Positions 2,694 to 21,129 of a stretch of DNA of 21,129 nucleotides are shown here, one piece after another; the first letter of the stretch is position 1, and each line of letters begins with the position of its first letter. The notes below the pieces were generated by a model, which made no database searches, had not been told where the DNA came from, and worked only from the letters and a program-made list of their open reading frames with translations. The DNA lies in the IMG/VR virus record IMGVR_UViG_3300031566_014043, positions 1 to 21,129 of that record, one strand, 5' to 3'. Position numbers and translations under genes: made by a program. The DNA is from a virus.

Positions 2694-4404
2694 CCCATCG
2701 CAGTACGTAAAATTCAGCGATGCGAGCCAGCAAAGAAAAACGCTGTCCACCGAGATAGCGACCCGCAGCCGGTCGATTGATTTCGGTTATTTGGCAGGAT
2801 ACCTGCCGGACCCAGACCCGATCCTGCGGGCTACAGGGCAGTCTATTTCCGTATATAGGGAGCTGATCTCAGACGCCCATGTGTTTAGCTGTATTCAGAG
2901 CCGTAAGGCGGGCACACTCTGTAAGGAATGGAGCATTGAGCCTGCAACGAATAGCCGGAAGGATAAATATGCGGCTGACCTGGTCAAGTCTCAGTTTGAG
3001 GCATTGAAACGGCAGATGCAAAGGATTGTCTCCGAGATCCTGGATGCGGTTTTGTATGGCATGTCACCGTTAGAGGTTTTATGGCAGACCGATGGGAACA
3101 GTATCATGGCCGCCGATATCGTCGGTAAACCGCCTGAATGGTTTATATTCGATGAGGAAAATCGGCTGCGATTCCTGACCAGGGGAGACATGATCAGGGG
3201 TGAAGAGATCGGGGAAAAGAAAATCCTCCTGGCAAGGCATCTGGACAGCTATCAGAACCCTTACGGTGAGCGGGTTCTGAGCCGGTGTTTCTGGCCTGTG
3301 ACCTTCAAAAAAGGCGGGTTCAAATTCTGGGTTGTGTTCACCGAAAAATATGGCATGCCCTTCATGGTGGGCAAGGTGCCGCCAGGCACCGGAAGTCCTG
3401 AGCGGGAGGCCCTGGCCGACATGCTTGAAGACATGATCCAGGATGCAGTGGCGGTCATAAACGACAATGAGAGCGTAGATATGAAGGAGAGTGGAAGCAA
3501 GTCCGCCAGTGCCGATATCTACGAGCGGCTTATCCAGGCCGCTAATGCTGAGTCCAGCAAGGCCATTGTAGGCCAGACGCTAACCACTGAGGTAACAGGC
3601 AGCCAGGGCAGCTATGCTGCCAGCAAAACCCACCAGGAGGTCAGAACTGACCTGGTAGAGCTGGGAGATAAGCTGGTTATCGGCACGCTGTCTGAGTTTA
3701 TCCAGTGGGCTGTAGATTTCAATGTTGACGGGGCAGGGTATCCGACGTTTTCCTTTATTGAGGAAGAAGATGTTCAGAAGGATCGAAGCGAGAGGGATAA
3801 AAACCTGATTATCTGCGGATGGAGACCCACTCCTGGGTATTTTGAGAAATCCTACAATATGGACCCTGCCGATTTTACTATTGTGGAGCCATCTCCTATG
3901 GGACAGGGTGCAGGGTTAGCCGGTGGGCAGGGGGCAGGATTGGACGGGGGCAATGGGGCAGGGGAAGACGGGGGGCAGGGGAAGATTTCTCCCGTTGGTC
4001 GAAATGACAATGCGGTACCTGGGGAAACGTCCGGGAGAGCCGGTAATTACTCAGATTTACCGAGCGCTGCGAGCTCTGTTTTTTCTGTGGATAACTCGAA
4101 GGGTAACCAGCAGATATCTTCCTTTGCCGGACAAAGATTTACCCCTGCTCAGCAGGCCATCGAGGACATGATTGATGAAGCGGTTGGTAAGAGCCGGGGT
4201 GCGTTTGATGGTATGTCTGAAGATATTGTCAAGCTGGCAAAGTCATGTTCATCCTACGATGAATTACAGCAAAGGATTCTGGCCGCATATCCTCATATGG
4301 ATATATCAAAATATGAGGAGGTACTTCAGCAGTCCCTCTTTGCGGCTGAAATGTGGGGCCGGTATCAGGTTATTCAGGAACGCAAGAATAGAGGTGCCAG
4401 ATAA
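2662..4404 (+). CDS. Portal protein, Mu gp29-like (DUF935)
   Basis: A 580-residue portal protein of the Mu gp29/DUF935 type, forming the ring at the head vertex through which DNA enters and to which the tail attaches. Family-like signatures include DAHVFSCIQSRKAGT near residue 72, a DAVLYGMSPLEVLW block near 127, KYGMPFMVGKVPPGT near 230, and the TEVTGSQGSYAASKTHQEVRTDL region near 308. The SD AAGAGG at 2645-2650 fits ATG 2662. Its stop overlaps the next start by one base (TAATG), so the two genes are probably translationally coupled. Odd feature: residues about 414-490 form a low-complexity linker. It begins with glycine-rich GAG/GG repeats, and residues 441-449 (KISPVGRND) are encoded by a dispersed palindromic repeat arm. 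The C-terminal segment after this linker (FTPAQQAIEDMIDEAV onward) looks like the normal family end, so the frame survived the insertion. Confidence 0.88.
   Translation: MSKNLSGVWINPSQYVKFSDASQQRKTLSTEIATRSRSIDFGYLAGYLPDPDPILRATGQSISVYRELISDAHVFSCIQSRKAGTLCKEWSIEPATNSRKDKYAADLVKSQFEALKRQMQRIVSEILDAVLYGMSPLEVLWQTDGNSIMAADIVGKPPEWFIFDEENRLRFLTRGDMIRGEEIGEKKILLARHLDSYQNPYGERVLSRCFWPVTFKKGGFKFWVVFTEKYGMPFMVGKVPPGTGSPEREALADMLEDMIQDAVAVINDNESVDMKESGSKSASADIYERLIQAANAESSKAIVGQTLTTEVTGSQGSYAASKTHQEVRTDLVELGDKLVIGTLSEFIQWAVDFNVDGAGYPTFSFIEEEDVQKDRSERDKNLIICGWRPTPGYFEKSYNMDPADFTIVEPSPMGQGAGLAGGQGAGLDGGNGAGEDGGQGKISPVGRNDNAVPGETSGRAGNYSDLPSAASSVFSVDNSKGNQQISSFAGQRFTPAQQAIEDMIDEAVGKSRGAFDGMSEDIVKLAKSCSSYDELQQRILAAYPHMDISKYEEVLQQSLFAAEMWGRYQVIQERKNRGAR
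3925..3981 (+). other. G-tract cluster (potential G-quadruplex) inside the portal gene
   Basis: Seven runs of three or more G occur on the coding strand (3925-3927, 3930-3934, 3946-3950, 3955-3958, 3961-3964, 3970-3975, 3978-3981). The last four have loops of only 2, 5 and 2 bases. They encode the Gly-rich portal linker. Folding potential is inferred from the pattern only. Confidence 0.5.
3982..4009 (+). repeat. Single arm of a dispersed palindromic repeat, in frame within the portal gene
   Basis: Starts AAGATTTCTCCCGTTGG and ends CGAAATGACA. It equals the right arm of the large hairpin at 11131-11164 and is read in frame as KISPVGRND. Related arms occur at 9711-9743 and, in inverse orientation, at 11088-11121 and 15699-15730. 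Confidence 0.85.
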
Positions 4405-5132
4405 TGCCTGCTATTGTTCCAGAAATTATGCCATTCTTGGAGGCCATTAAATTCTGGCAAAGTAAGGTGCCACTCTCCCGGAGTATTTATCTCCAGCTCA
4501 ATGCTGAGGCAAAGCAAAAAGCCTTTAGCATGGCTGGGATTAATAAGCTTGATGAGTTGAATACAGTTTATCAGGCTCTTGGAGACGCAACGAAAAACGG
4601 TATTCAATTCGTAGATTTTTGCGACTCGATAAGAAATGTTATCGAGGATCATGGGTGGACCGGACCAAAGCTCTGGCGTGTATGGAATACCTATCGGACC
4701 GGCCTGCAGGTGAATTACAATGCCGGGCGTTATTCCCAGATGCTTGAAGAGACTGCTGACCGGCCATATTGGATGTATTCAGCCATAAATGATGACCGGA
4801 CACGCCCTGCTCATTTGGCTCTGGACGGAAAAGTTGCCAGGTACGATGACCCGTTCTGGGATCACTTTTATCCGCCTAACGGGTTCATGTGCCGCTGCCA
4901 GGTTATTTCCTTAAGCCTGGAGGAAGTACAGGATATGGGGCTGAAAGTTCAAACCGGTGAGGAGCTGTACAACCGGCCCTATGAGAGTAAGGATAGGGGG
5001 ATTGTGGTTCAGGCCCTATTGCCCGATGAAGGCTGGGACTTAAACCCGGCAAAGATCGGATGGGACCCGGATATGTCGAAGTATCCGCAGGCACTCCAGG
5101 ATGCGTTTGCGAAGTATATGCAGGGGGTGTGA
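4404..5132 (+). CDS. Minor head protein, Mu gpF-like head morphogenesis protein
   Basis: A 242-residue protein of the Mu gpF / SPP1 gp7 head-morphogenesis family. The C-terminal half carries the family signature: YSAINDDRTRPAHLALDGKV (residues 125-144), then DDPFWDHFYPPNGF (148-161) and MCRCQV (162-167). D130, D131, R132, H137 and the CRC pair are the conserved positions. The N-terminal part is helical and family-like but less distinctive. Proteins of this family are made in few copies and bind the portal inside the prohead. The start overlaps the portal stop by one base, consistent with translational coupling. At 242 residues it is shorter than Mu gpF itself but typical for compact Mu-like prophages. 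Confidence 0.85.
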   Translation: MPAIVPEIMPFLEAIKFWQSKVPLSRSIYLQLNAEAKQKAFSMAGINKLDELNTVYQALGDATKNGIQFVDFCDSIRNVIEDHGWTGPKLWRVWNTYRTGLQVNYNAGRYSQMLEETADRPYWMYSAINDDRTRPAHLALDGKVARYDDPFWDHFYPPNGFMCRCQVISLSLEEVQDMGLKVQTGEELYNRPYESKDRGIVVQALLPDEGWDLNPAKIGWDPDMSKYPQALQDAFAKYMQGV

Positions 5133-5139
5133 GAATATA

Positions 5140-5232
5140 GGTAGATAGGCTATAGGAAAAGATAGGCTGTAGGAAAACAGGCTGTAGGTAGATAGGGCTT
5201 TTAGCCTAACAGCCTAACAGCCTATAGCCTAA
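5140..5232. repeat. Intergenic palindromic repeat of the TAGGCTGTAGG family (copy 1)
   Basis: Tandem short units (ATAGGCTGTAGG, ATAGGCTATAGG) on the left face complementary units (AGCCTAACAGCCTA, GCCTATAGCCTA) on the right, around a TTTT-containing loop near 5200. It begins 7 bases after the gpF-like stop and ends with CTTCTTT. The same family fills five other gaps. A long hairpin transcript is likely; its function is unknown. Confidence 0.8.
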
Positions 5233-5307
5233 TAACCTTCTTTAGATTAGTGGACAGTGGTCAGTCGCCAGCGAAAAAACAACTGAACCGCTACCATTAC
5301 CCTATCC

Positions 5308-5399: not shown

Positions 5400-5522
5400 A
5401 TGATTGAAAATATAGTGATGCGATTTAGGAAAACCATAATGCGATGGTCATCGATGATGCAAACCGCAAAAAGATTGATGGAGGCTGCCAATCATGGCCG
5501 TCTCGACATGAGGTTAACATAA
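5400..5522 (+). CDS. Possible 40-residue ORF or gene remnant ending LMEAANHGRLDMRLT
   Basis: The frame runs from ATG 5400 to TAA 5520-5522. It ends LMEAANHGRLDMRLT, and a second copy of this ending (LMEAANHGRLDKRLT) is encoded at 5621-5668. Between the two DNA copies two of three base changes are silent in this frame, which suggests this frame was coding. The upstream part lacks a convincing SD and is unrecognised. It may be a real small gene, or the tail of a larger gene broken by the repeats that fill this gap. Confidence 0.3.
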   Translation: MIENIVMRFRKTIMRWSSMMQTAKRLMEAANHGRLDMRLT

Positions 5523-5535
5523 CATGAGTACAGAA
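5474..5535 (+). repeat. 62-bp direct repeat, copy A
   Basis: Runs from ATTGATGGAGGCTGCC to GAGTACAGAA and matches 5620-5681 with three mismatches, offset 146 bases. It includes an ORF end, a GAGG SD-like element and an ATGAGTACAGAA start. Confidence 0.9.
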
Positions 5536-5673
5536 CACATGAAGAAGGGGCTGGCCAAGAGGGCGGTGATTGAGGAACTCGATGGTAGAGGGTCTCCGTT
5601 GCGGCCAGCCCCGCCGCAAATTGATGGAGGCGGCCAATCATGGACGTCTCGACAAGAGGTTAACATAACATGA
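5524..5673 (+). CDS. Possible 49-residue ORF overlapping the protease start
   Basis: ATG 5524 opens MSTEHMKKGLAKRAVIEELDG, and the frame closes at TGA 5671-5673, overlapping the protease ATG (ATGA), an arrangement typical of coupling. The upstream sequence GAGGTTAACATAAC is identical to that before the protease start because of a 62-bp duplication. The first about 22 residues look like a soluble helical peptide. The later part is read out of the frame that seems conserved between the two repeat copies, so a frameshift joining MSTEH... to ...LMEAANHGRLDKRLT is a possible history. No known family is recognised. Confidence 0.35.
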   Translation: MSTEHMKKGLAKRAVIEELDGRGSPLRPAPPQIDGGGQSWTSRQEVNIT

Positions 5674-5681
5674 GTACAGAA
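5620..5681 (+). repeat. 62-bp direct repeat, copy B (carries the protease start)
   Basis: Second copy of 5474-5535. It supplies the SD-like GAGG and the ATG at 5670 used by the protease gene. In the LMEAANHGRLD frame two of the three differences from copy A are synonymous. Confidence 0.9.
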
Positions 5682-6790: not shown

Positions 6791-6872
6791 CGTTAGGAAA
6801 ACAGGATGTAGGTAGATAGGCTGTAGGTATTTAGCCTAAAAACCTAAAAACCTATAGCCTAATAGCCTTCTT
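6791..6872. repeat. Intergenic palindromic repeat of the TAGGCTGTAGG family (copy 2)
   Basis: Starts three bases after the protease stop with GTTAGGAAAACAGGATGTAGG, passes through TAGGCTGTAGGTATTTAGCC, and returns as AACCTATAGCCTAATAGCCTTCTTT. The SD AAGGAG of the decoration gene follows. Confidence 0.8.
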
Positions 6873-6895
6873 TCAAAATTAAGGAGAAAAAATAA

Positions 6896-7728: not shown

Positions 7729-8682
7729 ATGGGACGAGTTCTTCATGTCGATACGCCTCTCAGCAATGTATTGATAGCGTATAAAAACGCTGAATTCATT
7801 GCTGACAGAGCGGTTCTAACGGTTCCTGTAGGAAAGCAATCGGATAAGTATTTTTATTTCCCCAAAGGGGCAATTTTCCGCGATGAAGCCGGGTTGATTG
7901 CTGGCGGGGCTGAATCTCCCAGAGGAGATTTCCCCATCTCGGCTGATACATTTTACTGCAATCCTTATGGATTTGCCGTAAATATCCTCGATGATGACAG
8001 GGAAAACGCTGACGCACCCCTAAACCCCGAACTTGATGCAACCGATTATTGTGGAAGTAAAATCCTGCTGAAGAAGGAGGTTATGGTAGCCTCCAAATTA
8101 TTGACCAGCTCTAACTGGGCTGCCGGACACGCTATGGATTGTGAAGGGACATGGGTGGCAGGGGAAAGCAATACCTTCATTGCCGATGTGGAATATGGCA
8201 TTAAGTACATCCTGGACCGTACTGGCAAAAGGCCGAATGTCATGATCATGGACGGTGGGACTCTCGGAGCAGTAAAAAGCGAGTCTACCGTATTGGAGCG
8301 CATTAAGTATGTCGAGAGAGGCATTGTCAGCGCACCTTTGATCGCGGCTCTCTTTGAACTTGATGAAGTCCTCATCGGGGATGCCCTGGTATCAACAGCG
8401 GTTGAAAAGGCCGATGGAACTGATTTTAGCGGAAAGAAGATATGGGAAGTTAATACGGGTCAAGGATCTGCTTTGTTGCTATATAGGCCGCCAGTTGCCG
8501 GGATCAAAAACCCATCGTCGGCATATCTTTACTCCTGGGCAAAGAATGGGCTTGCCAGGATTATTAATCGATGGAGAGAGGATAAGAATCACAGAGATGT
8601 AGTCGAAGGAATCGAGCGGTTTGACTGCAAAATTACCGGGTCTGATCTGGGGTTTTTGTTCAGTGACACGATTTCAACGTAA
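7729..8682 (+). CDS. Major capsid protein (HK97-fold)
   Basis: A 317-residue major head protein. ATG 7729 is chosen over the in-frame GTG at 7690 because AAAGGAGG lies 5 bases before it and the hairpin at 7694-7712 lies between the two. Family-like motifs are LSNVLIAYKNAEFIADRAVL near residue 10, VPVGKQSDKYFYFPKG near 32, FAVNILDDDRENADAPLNPE near 85, and the IKNPSSAYLYSWAKNG block near 260. The pattern resembles widespread phage major capsid proteins, probably HK97-fold by family. The strong SD fits the most abundant virion protein. Position after the decoration gene and before the connector genes is standard. Confidence 0.82.
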   Translation: MGRVLHVDTPLSNVLIAYKNAEFIADRAVLTVPVGKQSDKYFYFPKGAIFRDEAGLIAGGAESPRGDFPISADTFYCNPYGFAVNILDDDRENADAPLNPELDATDYCGSKILLKKEVMVASKLLTSSNWAAGHAMDCEGTWVAGESNTFIADVEYGIKYILDRTGKRPNVMIMDGGTLGAVKSESTVLERIKYVERGIVSAPLIAALFELDEVLIGDALVSTAVEKADGTDFSGKKIWEVNTGQGSALLLYRPPVAGIKNPSSAYLYSWAKNGLARIINRWREDKNHRDVVEGIERFDCKITGSDLGFLFSDTIST

Positions 8683-8691
8683 CCAGGTATT

Positions 8692-8740
8692 CAGGGGTTT
8701 AGGCTGTAGGGGTTTAGGAGATAGGAAATTGTCCTATCTC
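8692..8740. repeat. Degenerate TAGGCTGTAGG repeat with a 9-bp hairpin (copy 3)
   Basis: TTTAGGCTGTAGGGGTTTAGG is followed by a perfect hairpin: GAGATAGGA (8718-8726), loop AATTG, TCCTATCTC (8732-8740). It begins shortly after the capsid stop. It is the shortest member of the family and has no T-run. Confidence 0.7.
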
Positions 8741-9056: not shown

Positions 9057-9482
9057 GTGGCTTATTGCACATTAGAGGAAGTTGAGCGACAGCTCGAAGA
9101 GGCAAAGATTATCGAGCTGACAGATGACGCCGACACTGGAGCCATAAACATGGATAATTTCAACTCCTGTGTGTCCAGCGCAGACCGGAAAATAGATGGC
9201 TTATGCCAGGCACGGTATACGGTGCCGTTTTCGGCACCGGTACCGGCCCTGGTGGTAGAGATGTCTATTAAGCTTACTATCTGTGAGCTCTTTGCCAGGA
9301 AGCGTCAGGGAGATAAGACCGTTGAGGAAATGAAGAAGTCCCAGGAGGCGCTCCTGGCAAAGATAAACAAGGGAGAGATACAGATCGGTATCAGTGATAC
9401 ATCTCCGATCTCTCCCCAGGCTACGGCAGCGTTGAGGGCGCGGACAAAGATTTTCGATTCGGATAAAATGGATCAGTATTAG
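9057..9482 (+). CDS. Head-tail adaptor, Mu gp36-like (DUF1320)
   Basis: A 141-residue protein with a GTG start 15 bases after the previous stop. It opens MAYCTLEEVERQLEE, has a helical ADRKIDGLCQARYTVPFSAPVPALVVEMSIKLTICELFARK core at residues 42-82, and ends with a short strand region. The DGLCQARYTVPF...VP..V...S..L...ELF pattern is that of the DUF1320/Mu gp36 family. This is a head completion protein that binds below the portal. The match is good across the whole length. Confidence 0.82.
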   Translation: MAYCTLEEVERQLEEAKIIELTDDADTGAINMDNFNSCVSSADRKIDGLCQARYTVPFSAPVPALVVEMSIKLTICELFARKRQGDKTVEEMKKSQEALLAKINKGEIQIGISDTSPISPQATAALRARTKIFDSDKMDQY

Positions 9483-9490
9483 GAAAACAG

Positions 9491-9626
9491 GCTGTAGGTA
9501 TTTAGGCTGTAGGTGTTTAGGCTAAAAACCTAAAAACCTACAGCCTAACAACCTGCTTGCTGTAGGTATTTAGGCTGTAGGTGTTTAGGCTAAAAACCTA
9601 AAAACCTACAGCCTAACAACCTGCTT
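9491..9626. repeat. Perfect 68-bp tandem duplication of a TAGGCTGTAGG palindrome (copy 4)
   Basis: 9491-9558 and 9559-9626 are identical. Each unit is itself near-palindromic (GCTGTAGGTATTTAGGCTG on the left, AAAACCTACAGCCTAACAAC on the right). The lead-in GGAAAACAG starts directly at the gp36-like stop (TAG). A partial third right arm (GCCTAACAGCCTAATAGCC) follows to about 9651. Confidence 0.92.
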
Positions 9627-9663
9627 TTAGAGCCTAACAGCCTAATAGCCTGCTTTCGGGATG

Positions 9664-9743
9664 CTCTGTCATCCCGAACGGAGTGAGGGATCTTAAGGTC
9701 AGCGGAAGCTTTAAGATTTCTCCCTCCGGTCGAAATGACAGAG
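9664..9743. repeat. Imperfect composite palindrome (CTGTCATCCCGAACGG...AAATGACAG)
   Basis: The left arm 9664-9696 (CTCTGTCATCCCGAACGGAG to GATCTTAA) pairs imperfectly with the right arm 9711-9743 (TTAAGATTTCTCCCTCCGG to GAAATGACAGAG), with a 14-base spacer. The arms belong to two diverged subtypes of the same dispersed element. It is related to 11088-11164 and to the single arms in the portal and NlpC genes. Confidence 0.82.
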
Positions 9744-10387: not shown

Positions 10388-10525
10388 AGGAAAACAGGCT
10401 GTAGGTGGATAGGCTGTAGGCTGTTAGGTAGGAAAAGATAGGCAGTGGGTATTTAGGCTTTTAACCTAACAGCCTAAATACCTACAGCCTAAACAACCTG
10501 CATTCCTCAGCCTAAACAACCTAAA
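10388..10525. repeat. Intergenic palindromic repeat of the TAGGCTGTAGG family (copy 5)
   Basis: Starts directly after the gpG-like stop with AGGAAAACAGGCTGTAGG, carries several TAGGCTGTAGG-type units, loops near GGCTTTTAACC, and returns as AACAGCCTAAATACCTACAGCC and further AGCCTAAACAACCT units. The SD of the next gene follows directly. Confidence 0.82.
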
Positions 10526-11087: not shown

Positions 11088-11164
11088 CTCTGTCATTTCG
11101 ACCAACGGGAGAAATCTTATATCGCTCACTTATAAGATTTCTCCCGTTGGTCGAAATGACAGAG
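11088..11164. repeat. Perfect 34-bp inverted repeat (dispersed palindromic element)
   Basis: The left arm 11088-11121 (CTCTGTCATTTCGACCAACG to CTTATA) is the exact reverse complement of 11131-11164, with a 9-base spacer TCGCTCACT. It lies in the 216-base gap between the gp37-like and chaperone genes. A second small stem, GAGGCA (11071-11076) with TGCCTC (11085-11090), abuts it. Confidence 0.95.
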
Positions 11165-11244
11165 AAGAAACTGGTCGAAATGACAGAGAAGAAACTGGTC
11201 GAAATGACAGAGAAGAAACTGGTCGAAATGACAGAGAAGAAACT
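11149..11244 (+). repeat. 24-bp tandem repeat, four perfect copies
   Basis: GGTCGAAATGACAGAGAAGA plus AACT is repeated exactly at 11149, 11173, 11197 and 11221. The unit is the outer end of the palindrome at 11131-11164 plus AGAAACT, so it arose by local amplification of the element edge. It ends 15 bases before the SD of the chaperone gene. Confidence 0.95.
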
Positions 11245-11274: not shown

Positions 11275-11757
11275 ATGCGAATCATCGGCAAAGACGTAAG
11301 AAACAAAATAACTATAACAGACCCAATCGGAGGGGGAGATGTCGAGTTTTCCTATCGCACCCCGACCACAGAGGAGAGGCAGCGATATAACTCCTCACTG
11401 TTTAGCGCGAAGGGCCGCAAGGTTAAAGTGACCATAGCTGAAGCGCGTCAGAAGTATGGCCTGATTATCCTCATGGGGATTCGTGAGGGTGATTTCCTAT
11501 ACGCTGATACTGCTGATCAGGCAGGTAAGGCTGAACAGGCAGGTAAGAAAAATGCCCCTGCAGTCCCTATTTCCTCCGATCCATCATCCCCTAATTACCG
11601 GGCTGACTGGAAAACACTGGTCGCCAGCTATGCAGCCGACATGGTGGAAACAATGACCGCTCACGTATTCGAGGGCGCAAGGGTCCAGTCAACTGAAGAC
11701 CTGGAGGATGAAGCGGAGACTGAAGATCAGGCAGAGGAAATCAGCGAAAAAAACTAA
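11275..11757 (+). CDS. Tail assembly chaperone, short form (lambda gpG-like)
   Basis: A 160-residue acidic protein with AAGGAG (11260-11265) before ATG 11275. It lies just upstream of the tape measure gene, where long-tailed phages encode their tail chaperones. It has a small beta start (DVRNKITITDPIGGGDVEFSYRTP cut at residue 29), a central helix, an Ala/Gly/Lys linker near residues 78-100, and an acidic tail. Recognition is by position, size, acidity and the frameshift signal at its end rather than by a strong motif. It ends GAA AAA AAC TAA, which forms a canonical -1 slippery heptamer at 11748-11754. Most ribosomes should stop here, while a fraction continue into the next ORF. Chaperones of this kind bind the tape measure and bring tube subunits. 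Confidence 0.68.
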   Translation: MRIIGKDVRNKITITDPIGGGDVEFSYRTPTTEERQRYNSSLFSAKGRKVKVTIAEARQKYGLIILMGIREGDFLYADTADQAGKAEQAGKKNAPAVPISSDPSSPNYRADWKTLVASYAADMVETMTAHVFEGARVQSTEDLEDEAETEDQAEEISEKN

Positions 11758-11798
11758 GAGTGCAGATCAAGGCCCTGCTCAATGGCCGGATCTGCACT
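11733..11798 (+). promoter_or_regulatory. Programmed -1 ribosomal frameshift site
   Basis: Three elements lie in order. An SD-like AGAGGA is at 11733-11738. The heptamer A_AAA_AAC at 11748-11754 is in the correct X_XXY_YYZ phase of the upstream ORF and immediately precedes its stop. A perfect 10-bp stem, AGTGCAGATC (11759-11768) with GATCTGCACT (11789-11798), begins 4 bases after the heptamer and holds a 4-bp inner GGCC/GGCC stem (11771-11774 with 11784-11787). A -1 slip moves translation from the frame of 11275 into that of 11760, giving a 260-residue fusion. This organisation matches known dnaX-like and phage G/GT signals. Efficiency cannot be judged by eye. Confidence 0.82.
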
Positions 11799-12056
11799 GA
11801 GGAGCACGAGACAAAGTGTTTAGAGAATTACGAGGAAATAGCAAGAGATTGGGCCTGTGCAAACTGCAAAGGATGGTTAAAGGAAGTCCATCCCTGGGTT
11901 GCTCATCTCTTTTCGGTTTACAGTCTGCAGCAGGCTGGATACCCATTCGATAAGAATGATCTGAGCATGGAAGAATGGATGGCACTCGGAGTCATTAACC
12001 AGGAAGTAAAGGCGCTGGAAGCCGGAGCACAGCAAGAGGAAGATAATGGCGACTGA
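11760..12056 (+). CDS. Frameshift extension of the tail chaperone (lambda T-like domain)
   Basis: A 98-residue frame in the -1 phase relative to the upstream chaperone. After slipping, reading would pass from AAA AAA to CTA AGA GTG CAG and stay open to 12056. Independent initiation at GTG 11760 is unlikely: the nearest SD-like element is 21 bases away and the GTG lies in the base of the predicted stem. The domain carries CANCKGWLKEVHPWVAH, with a Cys pair, and a helical VYSLQQAGYPFDKNDLSMEEWM segment near residue 53, plausible for a protein that binds the tape measure. It overlaps the tape measure start by 11 bases. It is probably made only as the C-terminal part of the 260-residue fusion. 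Confidence 0.7.
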   Translation: MQIKALLNGRICTEEHETKCLENYEEIARDWACANCKGWLKEVHPWVAHLFSVYSLQQAGYPFDKNDLSMEEWMALGVINQEVKALEAGAQQEEDNGD

Positions 12057-14067
12057 AAACAAGGTAGAAGTTGTCCTAAAGGCGAAAGACGAGATGAGCC
12101 CGGTCGTAGACAAAGCGACTGACGATACTCAAAATCAGCTCGATAAGTTAAAAAGCTTTGTCAAAGATCATTGGATGGGCATAGCTACAACGCTGACAGC
12201 AGTCAGCGCCAGCATAACCGCTGCATTCTATAAGTGCACGGAAGCAGCGATGGTCCAGGAAGATGCATTAAACGATCTGGTCGCAGCCATGCAAAAGGCA
12301 GGCACCTATACTCCAATTGCCGAGCAGGAGCTGGTTGACTATGCCAGAGCATTGCAGGGTGTAACCAAATATGGAGATGAGGCTATTATCTCCATTGAGG
12401 CAAACTTGCAAGGATATGGCATGACTGTAAGGGAAGTAAGGGCGGCTACCAAAGCTACCCTTGACCTGGCCGCTGCCAAAAAAATTGACCTGTGGGCAGC
12501 TTCTGAGCTGGTCGGAAAGGCGTTCGCCGGTGAGACCGGCACACTGTCCAGGTATGGCCTGATTCTTGGGGATAATATCCCGAAGACTGAGAAATTTGCG
12601 GCTGTACTGGCACTGATTAACGAGAAATATGGTGACAGGGCACAGCGGGATGCTGAGACCTATCGCGGGAAGATGATACAACTCAGTAATGCCTATGGGG
12701 ATTTGAAAGAGGCCATAGGCGGGGCAATCACTAAAAGCGATGCTATGAATAACAGCCTTGATATGTTTAAGGGTTTTATCGAAGGGCTTACCAATTTTAT
12801 AGAGCAACATCCTGCAGTAACCAAAATCATTCTTATCGCCGGAGCAATTACCGCCGTTGCAGGGGCATTAGGAACACTCGCTTTGATATTGGCTAAAGTG
12901 GCGCCTATTATCGCCGGATTGGGAGGAACTGCTGCTCTGACAGCGCTGATGGTAGCTGCGCCTGTGGCTGGTACTGCTTTGGTAGGGGGCGGCGGCGGGT
13001 GGATGCTTGGAAATTATATCCTAAGTGGTGGTACAAACCTTTTTACCCGTGATAATGCATGGGAGGAAAACGCTGCAACAGCAGAGGCTGACCGTCTCCG
13101 CAAGGAAGCGGAAGATGAGCAAAAAGTGCTTTTGGCAAAACTCCAGGCCAAAAAGGCCAGCATGTCAGCCGGTGGCCCCTCTGATCAAGTATCAATGAGC
13201 CAATCACTTCAGGAGATCCGGGATAAAGTTGAGAACGACGATATCTCTGCCAGAATAGCCAAACTGGAACGAGATAAAGAGCTCCATCAGATGGGATACA
13301 ATACTGAATCTAACTGGAAAAATACCCGGATAGCTGATCAGCAATTCAAGGAAGCCTCAAGTAATTCACTGCAAAATCAATTTAACCAGCAAGAGGAAGC
13401 GGATTATGAAGCATGGGCAAAAGAGCAGGAAGAAAGGCAGACAATCCAGCTCGAAAACTTTGAGGTAACCAAAACAAAAATGAATGAATTCTATGGCTGG
13501 ATGGAAAGCAGATCAAGGGAGGCGTCAATTGCTGCCCAGGCGAATTTTTCCAGCTACTTTTTTGATATGTTCACCGGGAAGATCCTCAATCTGAAGGATC
13601 TCTGGAAAGGATTTTGTGACAGCATCTGGAATGCATGGGCTCAGACTATGGCTAATATGGCGGCGCAGAAAATGACAACAGCGTTATTTGGATCATTATT
13701 CGGTGGATCTATAACGGCAGGCTGGTCGGGGGAACAGATGACATGGCAGACCATGCAGGGGGTGGCTAATTCCCCATTCATGGCCGAAGGCGGAGTTCTC
13801 AATCGTCCCACCTTCACGCTGGCGGGTGAAGCAGGCCCAGAGGCGTTCGTGCCATTATCCCGGGGCCGTTCAATCCCTGTGGAGATGCGAGGTGGCGGGG
13901 GCAGCGGCCAGTCTACACAGAACGTCACGATTAATATAGTCAATCCCCTGGATGGTGACTCGGTAAAGCGGATGCTGGCCAAAGAGAAGGATACCATTGC
14001 AGGCATTATTGTCCGCGACCATAACGACAGGGGTCAGGTTTACAATATGTTTCAGAATCGGAGATAA
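12046..14067 (+). CDS. Tape measure protein
   Basis: A 673-residue tail length ruler. The N-terminus (MATENKVEVVLKAKDEMSPV) and the following coiled-coil stretch are typical. Residues about 255-335 are strongly hydrophobic (IILIAGAITAVAGALG, ALILAKVAPIIAGLGG), probably the segment released into the host membrane at infection. Residues 345-480 are a charged coiled coil. The C-terminus has the familiar FMAEGGVLNRPTFTLAGEAG then PEAFVPLSRG signature near residue 585 and a final NVTINIVNPLDGDSVKRML segment. It begins inside the end of the chaperone extension. At about 1.5 angstrom per residue (a known ruler relation) the tail would be around 100 nm; this is an estimate. No lysozyme-like domain is visible. 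Confidence 0.9.
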   Translation: MATENKVEVVLKAKDEMSPVVDKATDDTQNQLDKLKSFVKDHWMGIATTLTAVSASITAAFYKCTEAAMVQEDALNDLVAAMQKAGTYTPIAEQELVDYARALQGVTKYGDEAIISIEANLQGYGMTVREVRAATKATLDLAAAKKIDLWAASELVGKAFAGETGTLSRYGLILGDNIPKTEKFAAVLALINEKYGDRAQRDAETYRGKMIQLSNAYGDLKEAIGGAITKSDAMNNSLDMFKGFIEGLTNFIEQHPAVTKIILIAGAITAVAGALGTLALILAKVAPIIAGLGGTAALTALMVAAPVAGTALVGGGGGWMLGNYILSGGTNLFTRDNAWEENAATAEADRLRKEAEDEQKVLLAKLQAKKASMSAGGPSDQVSMSQSLQEIRDKVENDDISARIAKLERDKELHQMGYNTESNWKNTRIADQQFKEASSNSLQNQFNQQEEADYEAWAKEQEERQTIQLENFEVTKTKMNEFYGWMESRSREASIAAQANFSSYFFDMFTGKILNLKDLWKGFCDSIWNAWAQTMANMAAQKMTTALFGSLFGGSITAGWSGEQMTWQTMQGVANSPFMAEGGVLNRPTFTLAGEAGPEAFVPLSRGRSIPVEMRGGGGSGQSTQNVTINIVNPLDGDSVKRMLAKEKDTIAGIIVRDHNDRGQVYNMFQNRR

Positions 14068-14073
14068 CTGATA

Positions 14074-14418
14074 ATGGCCATACAGACCTTCACCTGGATT
14101 CCCAATCACGAGTATAAGGAAGAAATTGATTACGACGTTGATCAGACGCAGTATATATCCGGAGCCCAGCAGCGATACCTGAATAATCCTGACCCGATAG
14201 GGCATAAATTTCATTTAAATTTCGTGAACCGGGCCACGTCTGAGATCACGGACATCGTGAATTTCCTGAAGGCCAGGAAAGGCCCCTGGGAAGCGTTTTA
14301 TTACGTCAGCCTCCTGGACGGCGCAACCTACACGGTACATTTCATAGGGCCTATTCCTCCTGCTACACAGACTAATACCAGGCGAAAGATAAGCCTGGTA
14401 TTCGAGATAACGAATTGA
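14074..14418 (+). CDS. Minor tail protein, lambda gpM-like
   Basis: A 114-residue protein six bases after the tape measure stop, preceded by GGAG. It opens QTFTWIPNHEYKEEIDYDV and continues with a GAQQRYLN patch, a FHLNFVNRATSEITDIVNFL segment, and the ARKGPWEAFYYVSLLDGATY motif near residue 67. A compact beta-rich protein with this F.W.P...Y and A.KG..EAFY pattern is typical of lambda gpM-like and related tail tip proteins that contact the distal tube. Its place between the tape measure and the gpL-like gene matches the lambda order H-M-L-K-I-J. Confidence 0.75.
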   Translation: MAIQTFTWIPNHEYKEEIDYDVDQTQYISGAQQRYLNNPDPIGHKFHLNFVNRATSEITDIVNFLKARKGPWEAFYYVSLLDGATYTVHFIGPIPPATQTNTRRKISLVFEITN

Positions 14419-14533
14419 GGAAGACAGGCATTTAGGCTGTAGGCATTTAGGCTGTAGGTAGATAGGCTGTAGGCTTTTAGCCTAACAGCCTACAGCCTAA
14501 CAACCTACAGCCTGCATTACTAATAGCCTTCTT
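14419..14533. repeat. Intergenic palindromic repeat of the TAGGCTGTAGG family (copy 6)
   Basis: Begins at the first base after the gpM-like TGA stop (GGAAGACAGGC) and carries TTTAGGCTGTAGG units on the left and GCCTAACAGCCTACAGCC units on the right, around TTTT near 14477-14480. It ends with ATAGCCTTCTTTT next to the SD AGGAG of the following gene. Confidence 0.82.
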
Positions 14534-14546
14534 TTAGGAGTCCATA

Positions 14547-15593: not shown

Positions 15594-16162
15594 ACCAGGA
15601 GAGGGATACTCTGGAAAGTAGTGCTATGAAATCTGATAGTGTGGAAAGTAATGCTATGGAAAACGGTAATGTGGAAAGTAGTGCTATGGAAGGTAACAGT
15701 GTCATTTCGACCGAAGGGAGAAATCTTAAAAGCGACCGCCTCCGCCAGCTCGTGGGATTACGCTACAAGCGCACTGCCGGAGATCGGCAGGGTAATGATT
15801 GCTTCGGATTGGTCCGAAGCTTCTGGAAAGAGCAGGGCATGAAGCCATGCGTTGCCGATTGTTTTATCTTTCCCTCTCCGGAGGGAAAAGTTTACCGAAG
15901 GCAGGTTGATCTGCTCCTTCGATCGTTTATACCTGTATATTCGATAGCTATTTTCAAAATAGCTAATTATGGGCAGGGTGACATTCTTCTGTTTGCACTT
16001 AAATCGCCCTCAGCGATAGACCATCTGGGGATTTGTCTGACCCTTTGCCCTTATACCCATAATTTTCTTCATATGACCCGTCAGTCCGGATCGGTCATAT
16101 CCGACCTTTCCGATAACTGGCAAAAGAGATTGAAAGGGGTGATTAAATGCCGGCAGGAGTAG
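15590..16162 (+). CDS. Tail tip NlpC/P60 peptidase, lambda gpK-like, with a repeat-derived N-terminus
   Basis: A 190-residue protein overlapping the gpL-like stop by four bases. Residues 50-190 form an NlpC/P60 fold: catalytic C71 in GNDCFGLVRSFWKE, H145 in IDHLGICL, and H161 in NFLHMTRQSG as the likely third residue. Such tail proteins cut peptidoglycan or process the tip. The N-terminal JAB/MPN domain found in lambda gpK is absent. Instead, residues 8-37 are three 10-residue repeats (VES.AME.. type) from a 30-bp tandem repeat, and residues 38-48 (VISTEGRNLKS) come from a dispersed palindromic repeat arm. The real domain probably starts near residue 49, and an inner start cannot be excluded. 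Confidence 0.78.
   Translation: MNQERDTLESSAMKSDSVESNAMENGNVESSAMEGNSVISTEGRNLKSDRLRQLVGLRYKRTAGDRQGNDCFGLVRSFWKEQGMKPCVADCFIFPSPEGKVYRRQVDLLLRSFIPVYSIAIFKIANYGQGDILLFALKSPSAIDHLGICLTLCPYTHNFLHMTRQSGSVISDLSDNWQKRLKGVIKCRQE
15611..15700 (+). repeat. 30-bp tandem repeat, three copies, coding
   Basis: Units begin CTGGAAAGTAGTGCTATG (15611), GTGGAAAGTAATGCTATG (15641) and GTGGAAAGTAGTGCTATG (15671). They are in frame and encode LESSAMKSDS, VESNAMENGN and VESSAMEGNS. The first 18 bases of each unit are conserved and the last 10-12 vary. Confidence 0.9.
15699..15730 (+). repeat. Single arm of the dispersed palindromic repeat, in frame in the NlpC gene
   Basis: GTGTCATTTCGACCGAAGGG followed by AGAAATCTTAAA; read in frame as VISTEGRNLK. 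It is in the opposite orientation to the arm in the portal gene. Confidence 0.85.
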
Positions 16163-19788: not shown

Positions 19789-21129
19789 ATGAAAAGTTCT
19801 CTCCATAAATTAGGCGGTGTATGGGTTTCCAGGACAAAGGAAACTACTGCTGGCACCTACCAGGAATCTAACTTGATGCGGCTCCCCTGGGAGCCTGGTA
19901 TGAAGTTTGAGCTATCAGCGGATAAGCAAGACGATAGGGACAGAATCACCGGGAAAGAAGGCCCGACGCAGACATACGAGCTGGCCAGGACTGCATCCGG
20001 ATCACTGAGCCAGAATGTCTCTATGGCAGATTTTCTTACTTGGATTTTTGCGTTTTATTTTGGTGAATGCGCTGATACAAACCCTGGGACGCTGGCAATG
20101 CAGCACGTCATTACGCCATTGACCTCGATAGACCATCCCACTTTCAGCGCATACCAGAAGCTCGGAGACGGGGTTTTCAGCGAGCGGTTCGCTGGCATGG
20201 GGGTGAATGGCTTTAATGTTGAGATTGGTAGCGGCTGGATCAAGTCCAGTTGCGACCTGAAAGGATGGGGTAAGAGCCAGGTAGATTTCATCAAGGCCAC
20301 CGGCACGCTTACTTCTACCACAACGCTTACCCTCGCGGAATACACTGCTGCAATGGAAACCGCAGGAGACGGCCACCTTAGGTACGCCGGAGGGACCAGC
20401 ACGGATCTAATCGCGGGGGCTACCGGTCCTGAACGACTGGAAAATATCCATAGAGTCAGGATTCAAAAGGCAGATGGCACATGGGTTACGGCCACCTTAA
20501 CCGATTGTACCGGACCAACAGGCGGACCCAGCGTTATTACCTTCTCGGAAATAGCTGAGCTGGTAGGGACTGAGGCATTCGAGATCTATTATATCGCAGC
20601 ACAGGCAGATTCCTGGAAGACACCGCCTGCTATTAACCAGGAGAGTCCGCTGAAGCTGGTAGACTGCACTTTAACGGTCAATGGCCTGTATGCTGGTGGT
20701 ATCACAATCACCGGAGGGGATACCGTTATCAATAACACCTGGGGAGGTCTTACCATATCCGGAGACAATGGCCTGCAATTGTTCAACATGCCAGGCTCTG
20801 GTAAGATCTACGCCACTAAACTGCTCAGGAGTCAAAGAGTTATCACCTTCCAATTGAGCGATGAGCTTCGCTCTGCTGTTATGGCGGCTGATATCGATGC
20901 TGGGGATACCCTTTCCCTTCAGATCAATGTCGAGGGAGCTGAGATCGAAACCGGTTATAAATTCGGTTTCCGGTACATCGTACCGAAGGTTGGAATTATC
21001 GGAAGGACTATCGATGTGCAGGACAAATACAACTACCAGAAGGGCAATTTAATTGCCCTCGAAGACGATACCTACGGTGTCGGTAAGATTATTACATGGA
21101 ATAAGATCGCCACCTATATTTCCGCGTAA
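19789..21129 (+). CDS. Tail tube-like major tail protein
   Basis: A 446-residue protein with AGAGGGG (19776-19782) before ATG 19789, ending at the last base of the window. The first 175 residues follow the pattern of phage tail tube proteins: an early TAGTYQESN segment, RTASGSLSQNVSMADFLTWI near 66, HVITPLTSIDHPTFSAYQ near 105, and the FAGMGVNGFNVEIGSG motif near 133. A Thr/Gly-rich insertion at about 176-290 (including TATLTDCTGPTGGPSVITFS) may be a surface domain. The final third returns to long strands, ending IGRTIDVQDKYNYQKGN. No other tube candidate exists between the gp37-like and chaperone genes, where this gene normally sits, which supports the assignment, but its place after gpJ is unusual. 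It could instead be a tube-fold distal tail protein. Confidence 0.62.
   Translation: MKSSLHKLGGVWVSRTKETTAGTYQESNLMRLPWEPGMKFELSADKQDDRDRITGKEGPTQTYELARTASGSLSQNVSMADFLTWIFAFYFGECADTNPGTLAMQHVITPLTSIDHPTFSAYQKLGDGVFSERFAGMGVNGFNVEIGSGWIKSSCDLKGWGKSQVDFIKATGTLTSTTTLTLAEYTAAMETAGDGHLRYAGGTSTDLIAGATGPERLENIHRVRIQKADGTWVTATLTDCTGPTGGPSVITFSEIAELVGTEAFEIYYIAAQADSWKTPPAINQESPLKLVDCTLTVNGLYAGGITITGGDTVINNTWGGLTISGDNGLQLFNMPGSGKIYATKLLRSQRVITFQLSDELRSAVMAADIDAGDTLSLQINVEGAEIETGYKFGFRYIVPKVGIIGRTIDVQDKYNYQKGNLIALEDDTYGVGKIITWNKIATYISA

Follow-up and report, generated by a model that had tools for sequence, protein, structure and literature searches.

Programmed -1 frameshifting between the two open reading frames (ORFs) that encode tail assembly chaperones is widely conserved in tailed phages, Mu being exceptional in its use of a -2 shift (PMC5009743). 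In the lambda G/GT system, the tape measure gene is preceded by two ORFs; the second, T, is in the -1 frame relative to G, and a slippery heptamer close to the 3' end of G allows a short and a long product (PMC5009743). In systems of this type, the two products are made in a set ratio and are absent from the virion. Among Mu-like phages, a -1 frameshift at T_TTT_TTC was predicted for the Pseudomonas siphophage PaMx73 (PMC4378225), a verified -2 frameshift is recorded for the gp41 region of Mu (GenBank AF083977 note citing PMID 15469818), and KS10 was reported without an identifiable frameshift site (PMC2628397).

The window analysed here is a whole IMG/VR record of 21,129 bases. Its head genes are Mu-like (Pfam matches to Portal_Mu, 2.8e-97; Phage_Mu_F, 8.9e-22; and Gp37, 2.3e-10), while siphovirus-type tail genes and a 673-aa tape measure protein are encoded 3' of a pair of small ORFs, ORF1 and ORF2; the window therefore resembles the Mu-like siphophages. 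As in lambda, the two ORFs immediately precede the gene for the tape measure, the second is in a shifted frame, a phased heptamer lies near the end of the first, and a short and a long product are predicted. In the relatives of this pair, the genes 3' of it likewise match tape measure PHROGs. We consider it very probable that ORF1 and ORF2 together form one locus for tail assembly chaperones of the kind typified by lambda G/GT, expressed with -1 programmed frameshifting. The locus differs from lambda G/GT in that its proteins belong to no Pfam or PHROG family, in the four near-invariant cysteines of its T domain, and in a stem and a Shine-Dalgarno (SD)-like element that recur across its family.

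With D3112 and PaMx73, the window shares Mu-like head genes, a flexible tail and a pair of short ORFs ahead of the tail components; unlike in the window, 43 codons separate the PaMx73 heptamer from the stop, and ORF36 begins with an AUG (PMC4378225). Proteins of the D3112 region gave no credible match to the profiles of the window family (E 0.35 or worse). Mu has related head modules (Portal_Mu, Phage_Mu_F, Gp37) and the same position of the chaperones before the tape measure gene, and differs by its -2 shift and its tail sheath. No match to the family profiles was found in Mu 20000-30000, the chaperones having no profile similarity. The cassette itself has a well-known counterpart in an unrelated gene, E. 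coli dnaX, where an SD-like element, A_AAA_AAG and a stem direct a -1 shift; in cassettes of this type each element raises frameshifting. The window presents all three elements, likewise ordered and similarly spaced, each with family-level support, and carries A_AAA_AAC where dnaX has A_AAA_AAG. A point against our reading is that in E. coli the former slips less than the latter, a ranking that may not be that of the window's host.

Table 1. Features of the chaperone locus and repeats of the window (positions are those of the window).
Feature	Position	Strand	Basis
ORF1, G-type tail assembly chaperone (very probable), 160 aa, acidic C-terminal tail	11275..11757	+	homologues in 86 pairs; fold; SD
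AGAGGA, SD-like element, 9 nt 5' of the heptamer	11733..11738	+	sequence; family anti-SD peak
A_AAA_AAC slippery heptamer, phased X_XXY_YYZ, flush with the ORF1 stop	11748..11754	+	sequence; family conservation
TAA, 0-frame stop of ORF1	11755..11757	+	sequence
Predicted T-type domain read in the -1 frame, 100 codons past the slip, then a stop	11754..12056	+	translation; conserved cysteines; AF2 model
Stem-loop: outer 10 bp (11759-11768 with 11789-11798) and inner 4 bp GGCC/GGCC	11759..11798	+	folding; family covariation
GTG within the stem, nominal start of the 98-codon ORF, considered unused	11760..11762	+	SD energy; AGG in the 85% relative; no start codon in 49 of 63 relatives
Gene of the 673-aa tape measure protein, following the pair	12046..14067	+	PHROG tape measure families, best 1.1e-14
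Palindromic repeat arrays	5124-5243, 6793-6873, 8676-8725, 9479-9627, 10388-10503, 14409-14534		sequence repeats
Repeat TTTCTCCCGTTGGTCGAAATGACA	3982-4009, 9667-9740, 11088-11243, 15697-15730		

An initial annotation, made from the letters of the window, had placed a correctly phased A_AAA_AAC at the end of the 160-codon ORF and predicted products of 160 and 260 residues. Both proposals stand: ORF1 ends in GAA AAA AAC TAA, and reading in the -1 frame from the last base of the heptamer runs for 100 codons, entering the 98-codon ORF. The junction peptide it offered, EKKLRVQIK, needs correction, as the usual tandem slip would give mainly EKNLRVQIK; the junction would read KKLRV... if the A-site codon were read after the slip. 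A search for tryptic junction peptides was rejected as a poor test since trypsin would split the fusion point, leaving NLR and VQIK; Glu-C would leave the junction peptide KNLRVQIKALLNGRICTE.

In the mechanism that we propose, most ribosomes would terminate at the TAA and release the 160-aa G protein. Some would pause, with the SD-like sequence on the 5' side of the heptamer and the stem-loop on its 3' side, slip one base back on A_AAA_AAC and continue in the -1 frame to yield the 260-aa G-T fusion. If lambda is a guide, the G protein would coat the tape measure protein, while the T portion of the fused product would recruit tail-tube subunits. The sequences show the layout, the phase, a heptamer conserved in function, stem covariation, the SD-like element and the lack of a usable ORF2 start; that slippage takes place, how efficient it would be and what G and GT do are inferred.

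Scanning viral and genome contigs with proteins and profiles recovered relatives forming 86 distinct ORF1-ORF2 pairs. All but one (85) place ORF2 in the -1 frame, the exception being L023, where it lies 217 nt downstream. A canonical heptamer no more than seven codons from the ORF1 stop was present in 63 of the 86 pairs, against 1.6 expected, and it was flush with the stop in 42, against 0.2 expected in 86 genes; the chance rate was taken from in-phase heptamers of such types within the body of ORF1 (29 of 12,147 codon positions, or 0.24%). Eight kinds of heptamer make up the 63: A_AAA_AAC (26), C_CCT_TTG (17), C_CCA_AAC (6), G_GGA_AAC (6), G_GGA_AAG (4), C_CCT_TTC (2), A_AAA_AAG (1) and A_AAA_AAA (1). 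The G_GGA_AAG borne by four relatives is what we take to be the lambda heptamer, and C_CCT_TTG has at least two origins on the tree. The alignment of homologues that the initial annotation had advised thus upholds the slip site in these 63 pairs, with the function kept while the letters changed.

The position of the T domain leads to the same element. This conserved domain begins right after the heptamer and has its first cysteine 10-15 codons from it, both where the ORF1 stop abuts the heptamer and where it comes as much as 21 nt later. Since the T domain tracks the heptamer at any distance of the stop, the anchor of the arrangement is the heptamer and not the stop.

In eleven further pairs, ORF2 is again in the -1 frame, but a canonical heptamer and an overlapping start are both missing (L011, L048, L060, L064, L065, L069, L077, L083, L099, L103 and L114). 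They are scattered tips on the tree, unexplained by either arrangement, and some carry near-heptamers such as C_CCT_ACC, C_CCT_TCC, C_CCG_GAC or G_GAA_AAG.

Upstream of the slip site, AGAGGA is found where it had been described, nine bases before the heptamer, and it is a probable stimulator of frameshifting. Across the family, where an SD-like GAGGA recurs at this place, the hexamer anti-SD energy peaks 6-12 nt 5' of the heptamer, with means reaching -4.7 against about -1 farther up, and an AGG/GGA-type motif occurs at 59 of the 63 sites compared with 16-27 in control stretches. This signal is partly confounded, because the linker is acidic and GAG-GA codons are expected there anyway. The choice of GAG over GAA at the SD-like spot (44:19 versus 58:58, p 0.012, with relatedness left uncorrected) supports selection on the nucleotides themselves.

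On the 3' side, AGTGCAGATC pairs with GATCTGCACT over 10 perfect bp enclosing GGCC/GGCC, so that the outer and inner stems of the initial annotation are both present, starting 4 nt after the heptamer. Such stems usually lie 5-9 nt away, and the spacing in the window is slightly short, which counts against the proposed mechanism. A folded 66-mer of the window reached a minimum free energy of -23.3 kcal/mol (z -3.53), and none of 200 shuffles was as stable; Rfam returned no match in the window. Among the relatives, 50-nt stretches that begin 4 nt past the heptamer had a mean z of -1.17, with 33% below -2, whereas at six control positions the mean z lay between -0.21 and 0.10, with 3-8% below -2.

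Compensatory changes in the stem, suggested beforehand as a check, were looked for in two ways. At 36 non-redundant sites of the A, G and CCA types, duplexes between a site's own arms averaged -15.35 kcal/mol versus -10.89 kcal/mol for swapped arms, and none of 2000 permutations, in which relatedness among sequences is not corrected for, was as low. The own-over-swapped gain fell to 0.55 kcal/mol at a +39 control (60 of 2000 permutations as low), and no such effect was seen at a +66 control or among the C_CCT-type members. A clean example is the change from ATT/AAT in L039 to GTT/AAC in L042, the 3' change being synonymous. The ungapped pair count gave a smaller signal: over 24 ungapped sequences, the helix covariation score was 0.252 versus 0.204 when shuffled (2/500) and at most 0.173 when slid, which points to a modest covariation excess. 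What is conserved across much of the family is a stem at the same place. Strict conservation of the 10-bp stem was rejected, as three outer pairs are gone in the closest relative (L002), which keeps a 7-bp stem together with a different inner stem; relative to the register of the family, the window's own stem is displaced slightly, by a few bases.

The same stem bears on the alternative that ORF2 is a separate gene, translated from its own GTG and coupled to termination at the TAA, which we judge very unlikely. This GTG sits only 2 nt past the ORF1 stop, one clade of homologues has overlapping starts with good SDs, and three relatives (L015, L095 and L112) combine a heptamer with an ATG beside the stop. 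Against these points, the GTG of the window lies within the 10-bp stem, and its anti-SD energy is -0.5 kcal/mol, whereas the starts of ORF1 and of the tape measure gene reach -9.3 and -6.0 kcal/mol, in keeping with the initial description of a buried start lacking an SD. It is replaced by AGG in an 85%-identical relative where the heptamer is unchanged, and 49 of the 63 heptamer-bearing pairs have no ATG, GTG or TTG between the slip site and the first cysteine.

RNA polymerase slippage on the A7 run would be another way to fuse the frames, through a mixed pool of mRNAs. Such slippage is a known route to fused frames (PMC5009743), and the slip site does hold seven A (11747-11753). We nevertheless regard this reading as highly improbable: many relatives with C_CCA_AAC, C_CCT_TTG or G_GGA_AAC have the same layout with no long homopolymer, and slippage of the polymerase would predict neither the SD-like element nor the covarying stem. 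Least credible of all, with next to no probability, is a single ORF split by an assembly or sequencing indel in A7 or by the decay of a prophage gene, an idea that a homopolymer in a metagenomic contig invites and that the relatives have refuted in practice, with a separate contig (IMGVR_UViG_3300032046_000440, ~85% identity) carrying the same A7C TAA and a -1 relation in 85 of the 86 pairs, many of them lacking a homopolymer.

Ribosomal -1 frameshifting thus being our reading of the window, a second arrangement exists within its family. Eleven heptamer-less pairs, whose genomes are of Desulfobacca, Syntrophobacterales and similar types, group in a single clade, fully supported in a tree built by a quick method, with SH-aLRT as its only support measure and unrooted. 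Most members have an ATG or GTG (TTG in L032) overlapping or just 5' of the ORF1 stop, and the SDs of the clade starts are mostly at -9 to -10 kcal/mol (-5.9 in L031); L022 and L023 have later ORF2 starts. Outside the clade, L056 on its own has a TGATG-type overlap and no heptamer, which brings the pairs classed as separate-start to 12. Homologues with both ORFs and no slip site had been named in advance as counter-evidence, and they do occur, in this clade and in L056, whereas the window's lineage is not among them. Because most of the clade carry a strong-SD start at or near the ORF1 stop, it looks like a derived or alternative arrangement, and no refutation for the window.

That the Desulfobacca/Syntrophobacterales-type lineage abandoned the fusion, or never had it, and starts T separately, with neither acidic linker nor slip site, seems to us an evenly balanced proposition; gain and loss of the heptamer are indistinguishable since the tree is unrooted. 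If true, a single family would offer T both fused and unfused as natural alternatives, and the lineage would directly test why the G-T fusion is needed. The separate-start loci (L117, L118 and L119 in genomes G004 and G005; L022-L033) are apparently chromosomal Mu-like particle clusters that look single-copy. They hold a Mu-like portal, gpT capsid and Gp36, with one Mu portal match per genome in the six genomes searched and an unusually short tape measure gene of about 250-290 aa; these clusters are possibly a domesticated, gene-transfer-agent-like element.

The identity of the proteins as tail chaperones, also proposed initially, is supported by gene order, the tape measure gene coming next, and by a weak fold match, but by no named family. 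Neither ORF1 nor ORF2 matched a family in Pfam or PHROGs, the Pfam search covering the window ORFs and 19-20 relatives, and the absence of any Pfam tail-chaperone match in that set leaves them apart from the Mu gp41/FluMu gp41 family. ORF1 had no match in NCBIfam, the family profiles detected no related PDB sequences, and tblastn against 50,697 phage records found no match to window ORF1, ORF2 or the ORF2 of three relatives. A few weak single-member family matches were judged to be due to chance. The AF2 model of ORF1 (pLDDT 89.6) has tail assembly chaperones as its best BFVD matches (top E 1.9e-3, TM 0.43), a weak and suggestive resemblance, and no fold match in the PDB. The ORF2 model (pLDDT 93.0) gave no structure match. 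Its T domain keeps four cysteines, at residues 14, 22, 35 and 38 after the slip, in 75-76 of 76 members, a pattern that suggests a metal site.

The frameshift mechanism is ordinary for phages, and none of the libraries searched contains the protein family. In the literature, we found nothing specific on the heptamers of this family or on a switch from frameshift to separate start in tail chaperones. A large, previously unnamed family is thereby added to the frameshifted tail chaperones. It offers some 60 natural variants of one cassette, in which the heptamer letters, the stems and the distance of the stop vary. This natural-variant set and the separate-start clade are its most useful parts: by comparing relatives, they would make testable both the need for the G-T fusion and the share of each stimulator.

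Other features of the window concern its gene content and its repeats. A 780-aa transposase-like protein (Transposase_29, 7.2e-9) occupies the left end (1-2343), adjoining the portal gene. At the other side, a tail tube gene (Phage_tube_2) follows a 1194-aa tail gene in 19789-21129; several relatives have a tube-like gene immediately 5' of ORF1, unlike the window, possibly reflecting a rearrangement. A 62-nt direct repeat is present at 5474-5535 and 5620-5681 (95% identical, 146 nt apart), its second copy spanning the start of a 372-aa ORF at 5670. Palindromic repeat arrays (TAGGCTGTAGGTATTTAGG... / CCTAAAAACCTACAGCCTAA) are found at gene junctions across the head-tail region, and one 28-base pattern of this repeat had no exact match in the loci searched. 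A second repeat, TTTCTCCCGTTGGTCGAAATGACA, occurs in inverted pairs and as a tandem array with a 24-nt unit immediately 5' of ORF1, and also lies within the portal and NlpC/P60 reading frames; it is present too in the contig of the closest relative.
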